NCBI GenBank assembly: GCA_023662875.1
Contig: JAMPIG010000032.1
Span: forward strand, 1 to 36,903
Length of the DNA: 36,903 nt
Direction of reading: 5' to 3'
DNA from: Roseburia sp.
Lineage (GTDB): Bacteria; Bacillota; Clostridia; Lachnospirales; Lachnospiraceae
Shown here: piece after piece, positions 7,363 through 36,722 of the stretch
How positions within the stretch are numbered: position 1 is the stretch's first letter
How the letters are laid out: every line of letters begins with the position of its first letter
Program-made: the position numbers and the translations under genes
Notes under the pieces: model-generated
The model's input: the letters and a program-made list of their open reading frames with translations, nothing else
Databases searched by the model: none
Told to the model about the DNA's origin: nothing

Positions 7363-9765
7363 CTACAAAAAAGCATCCACCGTCAACAGGTAGACCGTCT
7401 TCGCGCCTTTTGTATGTAGCGTATTTTTGCGAAAGCCCCAAATCCGAACGCCGCCCCGACGCCCCTCCACGATGACAGCCCCTCTTTCCGGAGTCGTCAG
7501 GATCCTGCATCCGGCGTCCTCCAGACGCCGGAGCAGTTCCTCGTGGGGATGACCGTACCGGTTATTCCTGCCGCAGGAAATAACCGCCAGCCGGGGGGCA
7601 ATCTGTTCCAACAGCTCCCTCGATGTCGAATTCCGGGAGCCGTGATGGGAAACCTTCAGCACCGTCACCGCCCGGATTTCTCTCCTTTGCAGCTCCCGCA
7701 GCAGGGCCTCTTCCCCCTCTTCCTCCACATCCCCTGTAAGCAGCAGCGAAAAACTGCCGAATTCCACATAAATACATTCTGAACCGGCGTTTGTGTTTTC
7801 GGCCGGCCAGCCCTTCTCCGGGTGCAGGCACAGGAATTCCGCCGCCCCGCTTTCCCAGGCCTCCCCGGCGGAAAGCCAGGCGACCCGAACGCCGTCGGCT
7901 CCGTCATCCCCTTCCGCTGCGGCCAGCAGATCGGCAAACCGGTCTTCTCCCTCTTCCCTCTCCACCGCCGGTAACAGCAGCTGTCGGATCCGAATCCGAT
8001 GATCCTGCGCCAGCAGAAGCAGCTCCGTCACGCCGTTCATATGATCGCTGTCCGGATGGGAGACAAACACCCCGTCCAGGGTGCGGATCCCGTAATATTT
8101 CAGGCAGGGAAGCAGCACATACTGCCCCACGCCGCTGCGGCTGCTGCTGCCGCAGTCAAAAAGATAATTCTCCCCGGAAGCGGTTCGGACAAGGCAGCAG
8201 TCTCCCTGCCCCACATCCAGGAAGATTACCTGATCCCTCTGAATCGGGCGGATCCCCAGCGAAACCACCGCCAGGAGCAGGAGCCCATAGCGCAGAAGCC
8301 CAAGACTGCCGCTTTTTATAGCCGGGGAGACCTCCGCCCCCATCTGTTTCGGGCAGTCTCCCCTCTTCCCGGCGATTCTTCCTTTCTTCTTTTGTCCCAG
8401 CAGCACGGCCCCCAGCAAAATCCCATAGTACAGAAAAACCTGCCAGGTCGCAGGCCGCCCCGGATTCCAGGTGTGAAAGGGCAGCCGGTCGCAAAGTCCG
8501 CATACTGTCTCATAAATCCAAAGAATCCCCCGATCCGCCCAGGCGAAAGCTCCAAGCCCCGGAATCAGACTGAACAGTCCCGTTATCAGCAGCGGCTTCA
8601 TCAGCGGCAGAATCAGAAGGTTCACCGCCAGAGAGTATATCGGCGTCTCATAATAGTACCACAGCTGGATCGGCAGGGTCGCCAGGGTGATGGAGCAGCT
8701 CGCCGCCGCGGCGGATTTCACCTTCCCGACCGCCTCCCGCATCCGGATCCGCCATTCCTTCTCCCCGTAAAACCGCGCCCCTGCCGACCGGGGAGCGCCT
8801 CCTTTCAGAATAGGATGGATCACTGCGATTCCCAAAACCGAGGAGAAGGACAGAAGAAACCCTGCGTTCTGCAGGTAATAGGGGTTGTGCATCGTCATGG
8901 CTGCCAGCAGAATCCCCAGCGCCGTCAAGGTATCGTAGCTTCGCCCGATCATCTCCGCTCCCATGCGGAGCAGATACATCCCGATGGCCCGGCAGGCGGA
9001 TACGGAGAACCCCGCCATGCTCCCGTAAAAAAGCAGCGCCCCGCTTCCCGCCAGCGCAGCCGCGGGCACAGGCAGTCCCATTTTCCGCAGCGCCTTATAG
9101 ATACTCATGCCGATAATCGTGATATGCAGGGAAGAGATCGATAGGATATGTAAAATTCCGTTCCTCTTGTAAAGATCCTTCAGATCGCCGTCCAACTCCG
9201 CCCTGTCCCCCAGCAGGAGTGCGCACATCACTCCGGCGCTCTCCTGCGGCAGAATACGGTAGATCCTGTCCCGCAGAAATTGCCGCAGCCGCCAGGCCGC
9301 CTCCCGGATCGGCCAGCGTCCGCCGTCCCGGGCGAGAAGCTCCGCCGACAAAAGTCTTCCTCCCGCCTGCAGGGAGCGGTAATAGGCGGCGCTGTCGAAT
9401 TCCCCCGGATTGGCCGCCTCCGAAAAGGGCATAAAAACGCCGCCCAAAACCACCCTGCTTCCCAGGGGCAGCTTTGTTTCCTCCGAAATCTCGCATATAA
9501 GCTTTTGATGATATGGAATATCCTGTTCCAGATGATCTGTCTGATGAAATGTATTATCCTGAAAGGTAAAGGTTACGGACTGTAACCAGATTTTATTTTC
9601 TTCTTTCCGGCAAATCTGCCCTGTCACATACAGGGCGTCTCCCGCCTCAGGTTCTCCCCCTACGGCCCCGCCCGGCGAAGGATCCTCAAATCCTCCCGCC
9701 GTCAGCCGGATCCAGAGAACCGCCGTCAGAAGCAGCGCCGCCAGAAACACCGGCCTCTTTATCAT
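7363..9765 (-). CDS. comEC: DNA internalisation competence protein ComEC/Rec2
   Basis: Membrane channel that brings single-stranded DNA into the cytoplasm during transformation. The 800 residues contain an N-terminal membrane segment, a DUF4131/OB-like region (about 40-150), the multi-spanning Competence domain starting near residue 170 (GVMCALLLGDRAEL, HILSISSLHITIIG) and a C-terminal metallo-beta-lactamase-like domain (about 530-780, with FLDVGQGDCCLVRT, the metal motif SHPDSDHMNG and later LKVSHHGSRNSTS). The motif usually read as ISGLH is ISSLH here. Length and order are complete. It lies at the far end of the block that begins with comEA, separated from the GerMN gene by about 190 bases of hairpin-rich DNA. 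Confidence 0.96.
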   Translation of the reverse strand: MIKRPVFLAALLLTAVLWIRLTAGGFEDPSPGGAVGGEPEAGDALYVTGQICRKEENKIWLQSVTFTFQDNTFHQTDHLEQDIPYHQKLICEISEETKLPLGSRVVLGGVFMPFSEAANPGEFDSAAYYRSLQAGGRLLSAELLARDGGRWPIREAAWRLRQFLRDRIYRILPQESAGVMCALLLGDRAELDGDLKDLYKRNGILHILSISSLHITIIGMSIYKALRKMGLPVPAAALAGSGALLFYGSMAGFSVSACRAIGMYLLRMGAEMIGRSYDTLTALGILLAAMTMHNPYYLQNAGFLLSFSSVLGIAVIHPILKGGAPRSAGARFYGEKEWRIRMREAVGKVKSAAAASCSITLATLPIQLWYYYETPIYSLAVNLLILPLMKPLLITGLFSLIPGLGAFAWADRGILWIYETVCGLCDRLPFHTWNPGRPATWQVFLYYGILLGAVLLGQKKKGRIAGKRGDCPKQMGAEVSPAIKSGSLGLLRYGLLLLAVVSLGIRPIQRDQVIFLDVGQGDCCLVRTASGENYLFDCGSSSRSGVGQYVLLPCLKYYGIRTLDGVFVSHPDSDHMNGVTELLLLAQDHRIRIRQLLLPAVEREEGEDRFADLLAAAEGDDGADGVRVAWLSAGEAWESGAAEFLCLHPEKGWPAENTNAGSECIYVEFGSFSLLLTGDVEEEGEEALLRELQRREIRAVTVLKVSHHGSRNSTSRELLEQIAPRLAVISCGRNNRYGHPHEELLRRLEDAGCRILTTPERGAVIVEGRRGGVRIWGFRKNTLHTKGAKTVYLLTVDAFL

Positions 9766-33490: not shown

Positions 33491-33538
33491 AAAAAAGAGC
33501 AGGAAGCCATTCCCTTTGCGGTTCTGGCATTCCTGCTC
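33491..33538 (-). terminator. Terminator of the DUF3800/small-protein unit
   Basis: GAGCAGGAA and TTCCTGCTC pair over nine bases and extend with GCC/GGC (33497-33538). On the minus strand the hairpin is followed by six U (A-run at 33491-33496). It may also serve trpB from the other side, although no T-run follows on plus. Confidence 0.85.
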
Positions 33539-33630
33539 GAATTATCTTTCGCTGAATCGTACTATAATTACTATGGCGTTTACAATAAAACTCAAGAGAA
33601 CTCGCTCAATTACGCTCTTGCCAGGCAATT

Positions 33631-33783
33631 CTACTTTACCCGGTACTGATCGGCTTCCTCATCCGTGAGCGGTCTGCCTAACGCTTTCGCTGCATCAATC
33701 ATTTTACGCCATTCATATCTTTTCCCGTCTGACGGTTCCGTTAATCTGCCGTCTTTTGCACAGTCCGCAATATCCCGTTCCAT
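33631..33783 (-). CDS. Small protein of 50 residues, downstream of the DUF3800 gene
   Basis: ATG at 33783 is preceded by AGGGAG, and the frame ends at TAG 33631-33633. The product (starts MERDIADCAKDGRLTEPSDG, ends LGRPLTDEEADQYRVK) is charged and looks helical, with one Trp and one Cys. It begins 18 bases after the DUF3800 stop on the same strand and a strong terminator lies about 90 bases beyond, so the two genes form one transcript. The balanced composition and ribosome binding site argue for a real gene. I recognise no named domain. Its position suggests a partner or antitoxin-like role for the DUF3800 protein, by inference only. Confidence 0.7.
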   Translation of the reverse strand: MERDIADCAKDGRLTEPSDGKRYEWRKMIDAAKALGRPLTDEEADQYRVK

Positions 33784-33801
33784 TCTCTCCCTCTCTGCTT
33801 C

Positions 33802-34482
33802 TCATAAATGTTTTTTCAACAACGGTTTAAGATAATTCTTTTTAAAGTCGCGGACGGAACAAAAGAATTCCTGCTCCGATTTGGAAAATGTATTGGTGTC
33901 TGCTTTTTCAGCCAGAAGCTCCATCGTACAAATCAAATCGGTGGCCTGAAATAGTTTGTAGTCCACTGGCTTTACCTTTCGGAACTCTACATGAGTGTAA
34001 AGCGTATTGAAAACAGATGTCAGTATTTTAGTGAGTTCAATCTGCCCATTGTCGTAATAAACGATAATTCTGTTGAATTTCTCCCAAAAATCCTGATGTG
34101 ATCTAAGTATCTCCGCGATTGACTTTGATATCCGTGCCGTCAAGGCAATAACGTCCGGGCATTCATCTTTCCTGATCTTAGCACAAACATAGTGAAAATC
34201 TAATTTTCTGGTAAAATTAAATAAGGCATTAAAAAGCCGTTTACGGTCTTCCATAAGGTCATTAGAATAAACGGATTCCCGGCGAATCAACGGTCCTGTA
34301 TGAATGGCGTGTTGTTTATATCCAAGATTTGATAAATGGGTCTCAAGATCATCTATATTTTTTGTGATGTTAATATCCTGATTATGTAGAACCATTGCAA
34401 CCAGATAAAACGGTGCATGGGAATCATATGGCCCGAAATCGCCCGATTCATCTATAAAAACACTCAATATCTTTTCCGCCAT
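33802..34482 (-). CDS. DUF3800 domain protein
   Basis: A 226-residue protein of a family predicted to have an RNase H-like fold and often found in accessory islands. The diagnostic N-terminal acidic motif is intact: FIDESGDFG with Asp11, Glu12 and Asp15. A second acidic strand, IIVYYDNGQIEL, and the C-terminal VDYKLFQATDLICTMELL with Asp are where this family places its other putative metal ligands. The biochemical activity of DUF3800 proteins is not established to my knowledge. The gene has its own consensus promoter and a structured leader of about 110 bases, and is followed by a 50-codon ORF. Base composition is AT-rich compared with the core genes to its left. Confidence 0.9.
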   Translation of the reverse strand: MAEKILSVFIDESGDFGPYDSHAPFYLVAMVLHNQDINITKNIDDLETHLSNLGYKQHAIHTGPLIRRESVYSNDLMEDRKRLFNALFNFTRKLDFHYVCAKIRKDECPDVIALTARISKSIAEILRSHQDFWEKFNRIIVYYDNGQIELTKILTSVFNTLYTHVEFRKVKPVDYKLFQATDLICTMELLAEKADTNTFSKSEQEFFCSVRDFKKNYLKPLLKKHL

Positions 34483-34499
34483 AGATTCCGCTTACCTTT

Positions 34500-34597
34500 C
34501 TCAAATTTCAACAACAAAATAGCGGGGAAATTCCCCGCCGTTCGGTGGACCAGGGTCTTCCGACCAGCCCAATCAGTGATACCACTGATTTATTTAT
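34500..34597 (-). ncRNA. Structured leader RNA upstream of the DUF3800 gene
   Basis: The minus-strand transcript from about 34597 would fold into consecutive hairpins: AATCAGTG-GTAT-CACTGATT (34571-34590), GGTC-GGAA-GACC (about 34554-34565), and the very stable GCGGGG/CCCCGC stem (34522-34538, GCGGGGAAATTCCCCGC on plus). The stretch between the last two repeats CTGGTC and has unpaired CACCGAACGG that could make tertiary contacts. It ends about 15-20 bases before the DUF3800 start. Several computationally described RNA motifs associate with DUF3800 genes; this leader may belong to one of them or be new. No U-tract follows, so it is not a simple attenuator. Confidence 0.65.
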
Positions 34598-34603
34598 ATG
34601 TCA

Positions 34604-34632
34604 ATTTTACCGAAAATATACTTTACTGTCAA
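34604..34632 (-). promoter_or_regulatory. Consensus promoter for the leader RNA/DUF3800 unit
   Basis: On the minus strand TTGACA (34627-34632), a 17-base spacer and TAAAAT (34604-34609). It is among the best promoter matches in the window, implying strong expression of the leader. Confidence 0.75.
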
Positions 34633-34644
34633 TGCGATTCAGAA

Positions 34645-34681
34645 AAAAATAAAATTTTTTCCGGCACCATAATCACACCGG
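34645..34681 (-). terminator. Possible terminator of the radical SAM operon
   Basis: On the minus strand CCGG-loop-CCGG (34661-34681), with wobble pairs inside, is followed by A and T runs. The stem is weak, and the T-run is preceded by six A, so this is tentative. The 9-base sequence GCGATTCAG flanks the region as a direct repeat at 34634 and 34681. Confidence 0.35.
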
Positions 34682-34728: not shown

Positions 34729-35733
34729 CTATTTTTCAAGCCAACAACATAGATCTGGAATATCAAATTTCCCCGATATGGCATAAGTAAAACATCTTTC
34801 ACCGCCTTTACAGGTTTTTGAATATTCGCAGGTTTTGCATTTCCCTGAAACTTCATACTGCCTTAAGCTTTTAAACACATCGTTGTACCGATATACTTCT
34901 AAAATACTTGTGGTATGAATATTTCCACAAGGAATCGGAAGTCGTCGGCAAGGAAAAATATTACCATGCTCATCGACTGTCACCAGAGAATCCCCTGCCT
35001 GACATGAATACGGGGAATCTTCTGAACCCAGGAACTGGAGCGCGCGATAATTTTGTACATATAGACCGCACCGTTGATTTTCGACATTCTCCCGTTCCCG
35101 CCGCAGGATTGCAACATATTCCGGCATATCCGCTTTGTCTAAAGGATGAATCTTCGATTGAGAATCAAAGGGAATGTATCTGTCGCTCCAAAGTGTCCGC
35201 ACATAATGCTTGCGACAAACCTCCGCCACTTGCGGGAATTGATGAAAATTCTCTTTATTAGCTGTAAAGGAAACACGGGCGGGGATCCTCCATTCAGCCA
35301 ATTGATCGAGGGCATGAATCACTTTTTCAAAATTTCCAATACCACGAATACTATCGTGGGTTTCTTGATTTCCGTCTAAACTGACCTGAAAAGCCTTGAG
35401 ATGCAATCCTTTTATAAGCCATAGATTCCTTGAATTGAGTACAGTACCATTTGACATAATGCCATAACGGTATTTATATCTGAATCGCCGCAAAAGCCAA
35501 AGAATTTTGTGAATATCGGGATGTAAAAACGGTTCTCCTCCTGTAATATGAACATGAACTGCCACCTTCTCCCGACTTTGCTTTTTCAAATATCGAACCA
35601 ATTCATCAAACTGCTCCAGCACAGACTTAATATCACGGTAGGGCATATCCATACAATGCTCACTTATATAGCAATGCCTGCAGCGAAGATTGCAATTTCC
35701 GGTAATATGTAACTGCAAAATTAAATTTTTCAT
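34729..35733 (-). CDS. Radical SAM/SPASM domain protein (peptide maturase-like)
   Basis: A 334-residue radical SAM enzyme, intact. The cluster motif CNLRCRHC places Cys14, Cys18 and Cys21 at the N-terminus; HITGGEPFLHPDI, GIMSNGTVL and FQVSLDGNQETHDSIRG follow in the usual order. The C-terminal SPASM-like region (about 240-334) supplies many cysteines for auxiliary Fe-S clusters: CQAGDS, GNIFPCRRLPIPCGNI, CKTCEYSKTCKGGERC and a final CC. Such enzymes usually modify ribosomally made peptides. It overlaps the next upstream SPASM gene by four bases (ATGA), so the two were co-translated. No precursor peptide is evident in the window. Confidence 0.9.
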   Translation of the reverse strand: MKNLILQLHITGNCNLRCRHCYISEHCMDMPYRDIKSVLEQFDELVRYLKKQSREKVAVHVHITGGEPFLHPDIHKILWLLRRFRYKYRYGIMSNGTVLNSRNLWLIKGLHLKAFQVSLDGNQETHDSIRGIGNFEKVIHALDQLAEWRIPARVSFTANKENFHQFPQVAEVCRKHYVRTLWSDRYIPFDSQSKIHPLDKADMPEYVAILRRERENVENQRCGLYVQNYRALQFLGSEDSPYSCQAGDSLVTVDEHGNIFPCRRLPIPCGNIHTTSILEVYRYNDVFKSLRQYEVSGKCKTCEYSKTCKGGERCFTYAISGKFDIPDLCCWLEK

Positions 35734-36722
35734 GGTTTTATAATCTCAGAATGCAACATTTGTGCGACAAATTGTCTGGCTCCGAAATAGGTAACATGTA
35801 AATCACGTATAATGCTTAAAACGCTGATTTTCTTATTTTGGCGAATTAATTCGGCACGCTGCTTATCCAAATACATAATATGATGGAAGTACGATACCCT
35901 GTAAATATTGTCATACTCCACCACTTTGATGCTCGGTTGAATATCATATTTCTTCCAAGGCAAAATGATTCTGTATGTGCGCGGAAATGCTTTCGGCGCT
36001 CTCGCAGGGTCAGCATCACAATCCACGGCTTTTCCATTTCTCTGGTCATCAAGATTTGTCATTCTGCAACCGCCACGACAGACATTTACAATTCTGCAGC
36101 CTCTGCATTTTTCTGGAACTTCCTTGCGTTCTCCCCAGGAAATCAATTTCTGCCGGATCTCCGAAAAATCATCCGCAAAGATGTTTCCAATACTCTCGCT
36201 GTCTTTTGAACAGGCATACACATTTCCATCCATATCCACATTATATCCATTGATTCCAGCGCCGCAGCTTTTTCCGAACATTTTCAGACTTGCCGCAGAC
36301 GGAAAGATACAAAACGGAAAACCGCCGCAGGCAGAAACATATATATTATTTCTTTTCTTTAGCTGTTCGCATATTTTGAATAAGAGAACCAAGTCTTCTT
36401 TGCCTAACGCATATTCATCAAATTGTGAAGCAGCATTCGCAGGACGGGTTACACGGCTGATAAACAGCTTCTGACAATGATATCTGTCAATAAGCCATTG
36501 TGCTGTCGTTTCGATTTCATCCAGGTTTCGCTTCGATACCACTATATTGGGAGTAAAGGAAATGTCATGTTTGCGTAAAAAATCCATCCCCTGCACGACA
36601 GAGTCATATGTATAAGAATTATTTGTCGTTTTTTGAAACGTATCCTCACTGACGCTGGGAAAGGATACCATGAGATTTACCTGATACTCTTTGAAAAATT
36701 TTGCAATATCTTCTGTAATCAA
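35730..36722 (-). pseudogene. SPASM protein lacking its radical SAM core, with PqqD-like C-terminus
   Basis: The open frame (330 codons from a TTG at 36722) starts in the middle of a radical SAM fold. In-frame codons just upstream read IVLNGSL before LITEDIAKFF, matching the position after the GGEP motif in relatives, but an in-frame TGA at 36744-36746 ends it, so the CxxxCxxC cluster motif and about 90 residues are missing. The remainder keeps the second half of the barrel, a SPASM region (CGAGINGYNVDMDGNVYACS, CRGCRIVNVCRGGC at about 135-225) and a C-terminal domain (about 245-330, IMYLDKQRAELIRQ, ending QMLHSEIIKP) that looks like a PqqD/RRE peptide-recognition domain. Catalysis is unlikely; a recognition role for the partner enzyme remains possible. 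Confidence 0.75.

Follow-up and report, generated by a model that had tools for sequence, protein, structure and literature searches.

The window, i.e., the whole stretch of 36,903 nucleotides that was analysed, derives from a genome belonging to a genus of Lachnospiraceae. Positions 34632 to 33802 on its minus strand form a DUF3800-XI cassette composed of a promoter, a three-hairpin RNA (approximately 80 nt, with an intrinsic terminator at its end), and a DUF3800 gene. The cassette and the DNA that follows it comprise:

34604..34632, minus strand: sigma-70-type promoter TTGACA-17-TAAAAT, with a start site expected near 34597
34571..34590, minus strand: hairpin 1 of the RNA, AAUCAGUG-GUAU-CACUGAUU, missing from the Rfam model
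34524..34571, minus strand: core of Rfam RF02975 (DUF3800-XI), 69.2 bits over the whole model (1-48)
34547..34570, minus strand: hairpin 2, GGGCUGGUC-GGAA-GACC-CU-GGUCC, with the outer stem GGGCU/GGUCC followed by A-CC at 34546-34544
34521..34539, minus strand: hairpin 3, GGCGGGG-AAUUU-CCCCGCU, with a short U-tract to ~34516, an intrinsic terminator between RNA and gene
33802..34482, minus strand: DUF3800 gene (PF12686), 226 aa, predicted RNase-H-fold nuclease
33631..33783, minus strand: ORF of 50 aa, outside the unit, starting 18 nt past the DUF3800 stop
33491..33538, minus strand: hairpin GAGCAGGA..TCCTGCTC plus six Ts, between the minus-strand unit and a convergent TrpB-like gene

The initial annotation described this DNA as a self-contained unit in which a consensus promoter, three strong hairpins, a DUF3800 gene, and a 50-residue protein are closed by a terminator. 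The promoter (34632-34604, minus strand) stands: it matches 11 of 12 consensus bases and is the best of seven promoter-like sites detected by a scan of 1.6 kb (4.2 in shuffles), and the mean promoter score of 13 intact cassettes of the genus is 8.02 as compared to 6.55 for shuffled sequence. Hairpin 3 with ATTTTGTTGT constitutes a terminator-like site (34539-34521); two such sites were listed by the scan versus 1.5 in shuffles, and this count is therefore weak proof by itself. The closing terminator was borne out in part: a hairpin (33538-33497) followed by six Ts can be seen by eye, but it is absent from the list produced by the terminator scan (loops allowed up to 8), it is not the conserved terminator of the unit, and it is probably not specific to the cassette. 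Likewise, the DNA is AT-richer as stated, with a GC content of 0.38-0.41 in the cassette region versus mostly 0.50-0.61 leftward, but the AT-rich stretch continues past the cassette toward the contig end at 36903, across two radical-SAM genes, so that low GC is no marker of the cassette alone.

The 50-codon ORF begins where it had been placed, 18 nt after the DUF3800 stop (33783-33631), but its proposed membership in the unit did not survive comparison. Relatives occur at 14 places in 12 of 138 genomes of the genus, and only two of these places, the window and one in genome G041, adjoin DUF3800. At several of the others a longer form of the small protein comes after a 165-aa protein, relatives of which are present in 7 of the 14 loci. 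When eight cassettes near that of the window were compared by eye (the window, L109, L110, L112, L113, L116, L117, and L118), the ORF was whole in the window, L113, and L117, interrupted by an internal stop in L109 and L112, a few codons short in L110, and gone from L116 and L118. Of these, L113 comes from a cultured carrier, Parablautia intestinalis D8-82, and its DUF3800 protein shows 88% identity. Adjacency at 2 of 14 places together with stops or loss in near relatives rules the ORF out as a third component; judged by its sequence, it is a short relative of the small protein otherwise found after the 165-aa protein. The unit therefore does not extend to the closing terminator, and the conserved terminator is the one within the RNA. 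The DNA common to cassettes at different sites reaches at most ~220 nt before the 3' end of the RNA and ~120 nt after the gene.

The DUF3800 gene itself is as annotated. Its product belongs to PF12686 (E 1.7e-8, 35.8 bits, cut-off 21), a family that is matched by 70 of 70 relatives at E values up to 0.1. Among the residues invariant in these 70 sequences are D11, E12, S13, H61, R67, E69, R80, Y142, Y143, D144, G146, Q147, Q179, D182, and C185. These include the conserved acidic residues expected of an RNase-H-fold nuclease (D11, E12, D144, and D182), which are putatively catalytic; an RNase-H fold for DUF3800 proteins is given in PMC10910872. A profile of the 70 relatives matched no solved chain convincingly (best E 0.28). 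For the window protein, Pfam shows DUF3800 alone and PADLOC nothing, and the protein is not of the ToxN, CptN, or TenpN family. Across the six DUF3800 genes compared, dN/dS is 0.03-0.17, a rough estimate because 8 of the 15 gene pairs are near silent-site saturation (pS > 0.6), and by this rough measure the protein is under purifying selection.

The RNA was assigned by a covariance search with the published DUF3800 RNA models to RF02975 (69.2 bits, E 1.8e-13, gathering cut-off 37.8), a match far above chance and in keeping with the earlier statement that RNA motifs associated with DUF3800 genes had already been described. The three strong hairpins before the gene were also upheld, with a minimum free energy of -36.3 kcal/mol (z = -4.37) that was equalled by 0 of 200 shuffles. 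A DUF3800-XI RNA together with a DUF3800 gene is thus a pair already known from Rfam, where several classes of DUF3800 RNA are kept under names that run up to XI. The DUF3800 RNA classes were reportedly described by Weinberg in 2017. To the best of our knowledge, no DUF3800 RNA class has an assigned job, and none is given in the passages on DUF3800 consulted in an open full-text collection, outside which the original survey and most subscription papers lie.

The Rfam model of RF02975 spans 48 nt and pairs hairpin 2 only, leaving out hairpins 1 and 3. In a set of 55 RNAs (102 collapsed at 90%), both-side changes were found in 11 of 16 pairs, those of hairpin 3 included; hairpins 2 and 3 are thereby shown to covary strongly, and these two of the three hairpins in the initial annotation are conserved beside other DUF3800 genes. 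Within hairpin 2, sequence varies freely in the inner stem and hardly at all in the outer stem, GGGCU/GGUCC. Among the 43 RNAs beside intact genes, the fifth pair of the outer stem is U-G in all 43, the third pair is G-U in 34 (U-A in 7, C-G in 1, A-U in 1), and the bases after the stem are ACC in 28, AUC in 10, AAC in 3, and ACA in 2. The 25 nt 5' of the core vary. Hairpin 1 differs in sequence among relatives, with its stem often preserved; it is formed by 67 of 102 gene-adjacent RNAs (a set with some redundancy, the remainder of which show no clear hairpin there), by 10 of 24 next to a damaged gene, and by 18 of 57 that stand alone. No tandem repeats were found in the upstream regions fetched from relatives, each RNA carrying one copy of the motif, and no pseudoknot appears in its predicted folds. 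The upstream regions of 95 relatives show, by sequence, the same layout of RNA, intrinsic terminator, and nuclease gene behind one promoter. The genome of the window holds a second copy of RF02975 (contig C69:40541-40588, locus L033). Covariation of hairpin 3, the variable hairpin 1, the terminator end, and the occurrence of the RNA without a gene extend the Rfam description.

The relationship between RNA and gene was examined in 397 Lachnospiraceae genomes searched for both the protein (profile A1) and the RNA (RF02975). Profile A1 matched at 49 places, spread over 41 genomes; 32 of the genes are full length and free of stops, and RF02975 lies directly upstream of 29 of these 32. Two of the remaining three have a divergent RNA upstream (L262, 37.3 bits, and L263, 55.7 bits, with model R1); at the last, L261, the contig ends within the RNA and hairpin 3 is visible at the contig end. 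This locus may be the other half of an RNA plus gene start found at the end of contig G250:C54. Conversely, RF02975 was detected at 83 places in 60 of the 397 genomes, 29 of which precede a full-length gene. A further 50 places were fetched, and these include 15 with a damaged gene and 33 with none, as well as one with none and one with a partial gene at contig ends (L033 was counted with the genus, and three places were left unclassified).

The same relationship is evident within the genus and beyond the family. A search of 196 relatives detected the RNA at 46 places in 35 genomes, all within the genus of the window: 14 with an intact gene (195 or more residues, uninterrupted by a stop), 9 with a damaged gene, 21 with none, and 2 with none near a contig end. 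A total of 16 intact proteins were found in 138 genomes of the genus (L034 and L061 differ at the extreme C-terminus, and L044 and L070 reach a contig end). The RNA accompanies 15 of them; the contig of the sixteenth begins 109 nt upstream. In named genomes there are at least 531 protein relatives, and a clear RNA precedes 78 of the 80 best-scoring ones, which by record title come from Lachnospiraceae, Oscillospiraceae, Treponema, and others; of the other two, one is cut by a contig end and one is again the G103 gene, which starts near a contig end. For 15 viral protein relatives, the RNA scores well in 11 and a divergent candidate RNA is present in 4. Wherever upstream DNA was present in the family, the genus, and the named genomes, no intact DUF3800-XI protein was seen without the RNA. 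The dependence is shown to be one-way, in that intact genes have the RNA and most RNAs lack an intact gene, and the RNA and DUF3800 form a conserved two-part unit at many unrelated sites.

RNAs without a gene also occur in phages. A relaxed hairpin 2 pattern identified 41 stretches in IMG/VR, of which 33 were supported by model R1 and 8 were set aside (no R1 match, or matches of 18.7 and 25.7 bits). A DUF3800 gene or a piece of one is present in 9 of the 33 contigs and in the stretches of the other 24 there is none; merging near-identical stretches leaves 24 distinct contigs, 18 without and 6 with a gene. It should be noted that L350 and L364, both counted as gene-free, have less than 120 nt downstream, and that L355 and L361 repeat L350 with more. 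A separate protein scan of IMG/VR, based on two peptide patterns that may miss divergent genes, named none of the 24 gene-free contigs. Within the stretch, tRNA genes are present in 13 of the 24 gene-free contigs versus 0 of the 9 with a gene (p = 0.005), or 10 of 18 versus 0 of 6 when only distinct stretches are counted (p = 0.024). The proximity can be extreme: the RNA model match directly abuts a tRNA-Glu in L349/L357 and overlaps the initial bases of a tRNA-Ser in L359, L374, and L382, and L378 carries two copies of the RNA amid 22 tRNAs; in L370 the tRNA genes are 2.3 kb from the RNA. Rfam assigns DUF3800-XI in 14 of the 16 phage stretches submitted and also finds a ROOL RNA in L376, a class that phages are known to carry close to tRNA islands (PMC12286853). 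A scan of 117 neighboring proteins returned six portal, six terminase large subunit, and six exonuclease family matches. Portal or terminase was confirmed singly in L353, L356, L361, L364, L370, and L375, so that at least these are tailed phages.

The search pattern fixed the outer stem of hairpin 2, and its conservation in phages is therefore uninformative; hairpin 3 was left free. In 19 phage RNAs from the 18 distinct stretches, both-side changes occur in all seven pairs of hairpin 3 (two rows of the alignment are almost wholly gaps there), and the scores observed for the whole structure were reached by 0 of 500 shuffles, in which kinship is not taken into account. Past hairpin 3, 11 of the 19 lack a run of four T within 10 nt. 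A second IMG/VR scan, with the third pair open on both sides, returned 23 stretches, of which 22 were the earlier G-U stretches and one was new (L389, which is the L196 contig; a gene is present and the third pair is G-C). Named phages and named plasmids yielded one protein match each. The phage match is a C-terminal piece, and in the 5-kb stretch around it model R1 detects no RNA (E values up to 1e-4).

The layout, the one-way dependence, and the phage copies together make an RNA antitoxin the best fit, and suggest that the RNA may disarm the protein and that phages may bring copies of their own. It is, in our judgment, narrowly probable that the cassette is a type III-like toxin-antitoxin or defense (abortive-infection) unit, in which the RNA would restrain an RNase-H-fold nuclease and the phage RNA copies would act as counter-defense. 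One promoter would give rise to a small structured RNA, with most transcripts stopping at the hairpin 3 terminator and occasional read-through yielding DUF3800, the predicted RNase-H-fold nuclease. The RNA would bind this protein in trans and hold it inactive; were the balance of RNA and protein disturbed, e.g., by a phage, the protein would cut RNA. Large phages would counter this defense with solitary copies of the RNA, many of them situated within tRNA arrays. From sequence we infer binding of RNA and protein, toxicity, RNA cleavage, dosing by read-through, and neutralization by phage copies. The initial annotation had likewise proposed a toxin-antitoxin or defense cassette; that proposal agrees with the RNA-DUF3800 pair, with the one-way dependence, and with the copies in phages, but the 50-residue protein is to be excluded from it.

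Several characterized systems offer parallels. In Clostridioides difficile, AbiF/Abi_2-RCd22 (RF03085) resembles DUF3800-XI in having a promoter, a structured RNA, an intrinsic terminator with read-through, and a protein gene; RCd22, which occurs in prophages, was demonstrated in cis and in trans to be the RNA antitoxin of the toxic AbiF (PMC12373285). This is the nearest proven case, and the AbiF RNA family, too, was called one of unknown function in a 2024 paper citing the same survey (PMC12373285; PMC12165695). However, AbiF is a HEPN-type family (PMC12165695) whereas DUF3800 is a predicted RNase-H-fold family, RCd22 has two motif copies whereas the DUF3800-XI RNA has one, and RF03085 has no match in the window. 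The abiF RNA (RF03085) proved too weak to serve as a positive control: a search of 150 genomes found it at 13 places, 4 of them above the cut-off, and 47 of the genomes have Abi_2, yet on visual inspection just 3 of the 13 RNAs lie directly before an Abi_2 gene, and 0 of the 4 above the cut-off do. A search for DUF3800-I (RF02969) found it in only 1 of 209 genomes, too few for comparison as a second class.

The type III systems ToxIN, CptIN, and TenpIN similarly have a single promoter, with the RNA first, a Rho-independent terminator, and the nuclease gene second, and phage 'pseudo-ToxI' sequences suppress the toxin (PMC5086642). The known type III antitoxins are repeats (PMC5086642), unlike the single motif copy of the DUF3800-XI RNA, which also differs in having no predicted pseudoknot and a different protein family as its partner. 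In phages T5 and T6, RNA genes of tRNA arrays oppose the tRNA-cleaving nuclease defense Septu (PMC13096335), much as proposed here; there, however, the genes encode tRNAs, whereas the phage RNA described here is not a tRNA and matches the RNA of the bacterial cassette. The open literature was searched for decoys of RNA antitoxins carried in phage tRNA arrays, and for toxins of RNase-H fold paired with an RNA antitoxin; among the titles listed, none concerned DUF3800. Lastly, the 3' hairpin consensus of the cow-rumen-3 RNA (RF03083), GGGCUGG..GGGUCCACC, is nearly that of DUF3800-XI hairpin 2, as judged from one alignment only; the cow-rumen-3 RNA is longer with a different 5' part, and its match in the window is 21 bits versus a cut-off of 86.7.

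Alternatively, the pair could be a ribonucleoprotein effector, in which the RNA would be indispensable to DUF3800 as a cofactor, guide, or bait, activating or directing the protein instead of silencing it; the phage copies would then titrate the protein or evade sensing. Such an effector would account for the RNA at intact genes and for competing phage copies, the variable 25 nt before the core (in approximately one third of gene-adjacent RNAs without a clear hairpin) leave room for a guide stretch, and DUF3800 proteins lie beside some class 2 CRISPR loci (PMC10910872 and PMC12669027). Nevertheless, this explanation is unlikely: at 48 of the 83 family places (damaged and none) the protein is lost and the RNA kept, as would be expected of an antitoxin and not of a cofactor, and where hairpin 1 exists, the variable part pairs with itself.

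How genes are lost bears on both the antitoxin reading and a further alternative, i.e., that bacterial gene-free RNAs are functionless relics or passengers left after decay of the cassette. Damaged cassettes retain N-terminal pieces (L068, L308, L310) or C-terminal pieces shortly past the terminator (L049, L059, L063, L309), or carry an in-frame internal deletion (L056) or a stop (L313). A loose 'gene start' pattern follows the RNA at 11 gene-free loci, and by eye approximately six of these look like true remnants (L062, L267, L274, L277, L288, L290). DUF3800 fragments without a detected RNA were found at L100, L316, L317, and L107, the last of which begins at a contig end. This pattern fits a scenario where loss of the protein is tolerated and loss of the RNA is tolerated only once the protein is dead. 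It is no proof of protection by the RNA, however, because the RNA segment also carries the promoter and a protein without it would be silent regardless of how the RNA acts.

The solitary bacterial RNAs, which were found by RNA search and thus with a bias toward intact ones, outlast the gene yet erode. At 124 loci, each represented by a single full-length model match (L075 gave no match), the 16 pairs of hairpins 2 and 3 are complete in all 43 RNAs next to an intact gene, in 23 of 25 next to a damaged one, and in 37 of 56 solitary RNAs; the promoter score drops from 8.02 to 7.02 at solo RNAs as compared to ~6.4-6.6 in shuffles. With fewer intact pairs and a weaker hairpin 1 and promoter, some solo copies resemble slowly decaying relics; this reduced integrity, the short gene starts that persist after some of them, and the frequent breaking of contigs at cassettes are what the relic explanation has in its favor. 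Set against it are compensatory changes that preserve hairpin 3 in phage copies, and the more frequent presence of gene-free or damaged RNAs in genomes that also hold an intact cassette (15 of 32 versus 29 of 365; odds ratio 10, kinship ignored). Copies inside one genome are divergent by eye, which argues against amplified relics and led to rejection of a MITE-like amplification of the RNA. We regard the relic explanation as distinctly unlikely. Neighbors of gene-free RNAs were also searched for a shared partner gene; apart from DUF3800, the largest cluster was an HTH group, present at 8 of 96 loci.

The outer stem of hairpin 2 offers a lead as to what the RNA might imitate. The sole tRNA-Ala found in the genome of the window (an incomplete assembly with 23 distinct tRNAs) has the acceptor stem GGGCUCG/CGGGUCC and A73. 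Its first five acceptor pairs and discriminator are those of hairpin 2, and its C74-C75 correspond to the CC after the RNA stem (CCA is absent from the gene as printed). Among 148 distinct tRNAs in the loci examined, ARAGORN identified six tRNA-Ala, that of the host included; five of the six share the first three pairs with the RNA, three share all five, and none of the 142 non-Ala tRNAs matches the RNA in its first three pairs. The G3-U70 pair is the main identity element of tRNA-Ala. The likeness is a lead because it was sought after the phage arrays had been noticed, and we tentatively suggest that the outer stem mimics the acceptor end of tRNA-Ala, which may be the target or the bait; the rest of the antitoxin reading does not depend on this step. 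A strict version of the mimicry is opposed by the 9 of 43 RNAs beside intact genes with a different third pair and by the bases other than ACC that follow the stem in some of the 43. More tentative still is the bolder version of the antitoxin reading, in which a defense nuclease would be held in check by an RNA that mimics its natural target, tRNA-Ala, and would be disarmed by the copies in phage tRNA arrays. In that version, the phages would be large ones of gut and rumen bacteria, with the RNA released next to tRNAs.

The same likeness could mean that the RNA serves another need of host or phage, e.g., binding of alanyl-tRNA synthetase or tRNA-processing enzymes, and that DUF3800 is a guard sensing its loss or capture. 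The acceptor-like stem, the G3-U70-like pair, and the 3' ACC, which match tRNA-Ala only, agree with such a role, as does the position of the RNA in phage tRNA arrays. But recognition by alanyl-tRNA synthetase cannot be general, since the third pair differs in 9 of the 43 RNAs beside intact genes, and no synthetase was recognized by eye in neighbor clusters of at least three loci; a guard is accordingly highly unlikely. Least probable of these alternatives is an ordinary cis leader, with hairpin 3 as an attenuator of DUF3800 and no post-transcriptional role for the RNA, for although the RNA lies between promoter and gene with a terminator-like hairpin at its end, RNAs without an intact gene outnumber those with one, gene-free phage copies in tRNA arrays keep hairpin 3 even though 11 of 19 lack the four-T run, and the outer stem of hairpin 2 and the ACC are conserved beyond the needs of an attenuator.

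The observations that are new here are the one-way dependence of the gene on the RNA, the gene-free RNAs of phages, and the match of the outer stem to tRNA-Ala. The three combined make the function of a DUF3800 RNA directly testable. If the reading of the RNA as an antitoxin is true, a branch with an RNase-H fold would be added to the RNA-antitoxin systems, together with a natural counter-defense that consists of RNA only.

In the window, the DUF3800 unit is adjoined, within its AT-rich stretch, by the following feature:

34729-36722, (-) strand: two radical SAM/SPASM genes

As called, the upstream of these two genes is matched by the radical-SAM profile over its second half only; its true start may lie further upstream, or the gene may be cut. 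Against named peptide-maturase families, both members of the pair fell below the cut-off among the matches listed.

Relatives of the 50-aa ORF, which was rejected as a component of the unit, were found at L319, L323, L325 and other loci, where a 165-aa protein is followed by a 57-60-aa protein akin to the ORF in the window. This pair constitutes an unnamed two-gene module.

Near gene-free DUF3800-XI RNAs at four loci (L042, L057, L280 and L283), putative AbiEi/AbiEii-like proteins were recognized from reading the sequence, and these neighbors recur across genomes. At L042 and L283, which belong to one gene-free RNA group, the A+T-rich flanks on both sides resemble, by eye, an inverted repeat around the RNA. 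On phage contigs, an array of 22 tRNA genes encloses two DUF3800-XI RNAs (L378, 3237-3308 and 5462-5540), while another array of 22 tRNA genes (L376) carries a DUF3800-XI RNA and a ROOL RNA (positions 2175-2251 and 7644-8224). A further phage contig with a gene-free DUF3800-XI RNA has a Twister-P5 ribozyme match (L364, 2321-2374, (-) strand).

Two loci appear to be rearranged. At L068 (+17..+532 past the RNA), a deletion joins the first 34 DUF3800 residues in frame to an unrelated protein, possibly yielding a chimeric gene driven by the promoter of the RNA. At L053, at the end of contig G030:C16, an insert of ~60 nt apparently splits hairpin 3, as judged by eye.

DUF3800-XI RNAs also occur as same-strand pairs (L297, G499:C4 83219 and 84122; L248, 2295-2372). 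Their spacing of ~900 nt equals one cassette length, and the pairs are possibly tandem cassettes. Lastly, in an alignment to window 34544-34662 (-), the 3' hairpin of the cow-rumen-3 RNA (RF03083) is nearly identical to the DUF3800-XI hairpin, and a relationship between these Rfam families is possible.
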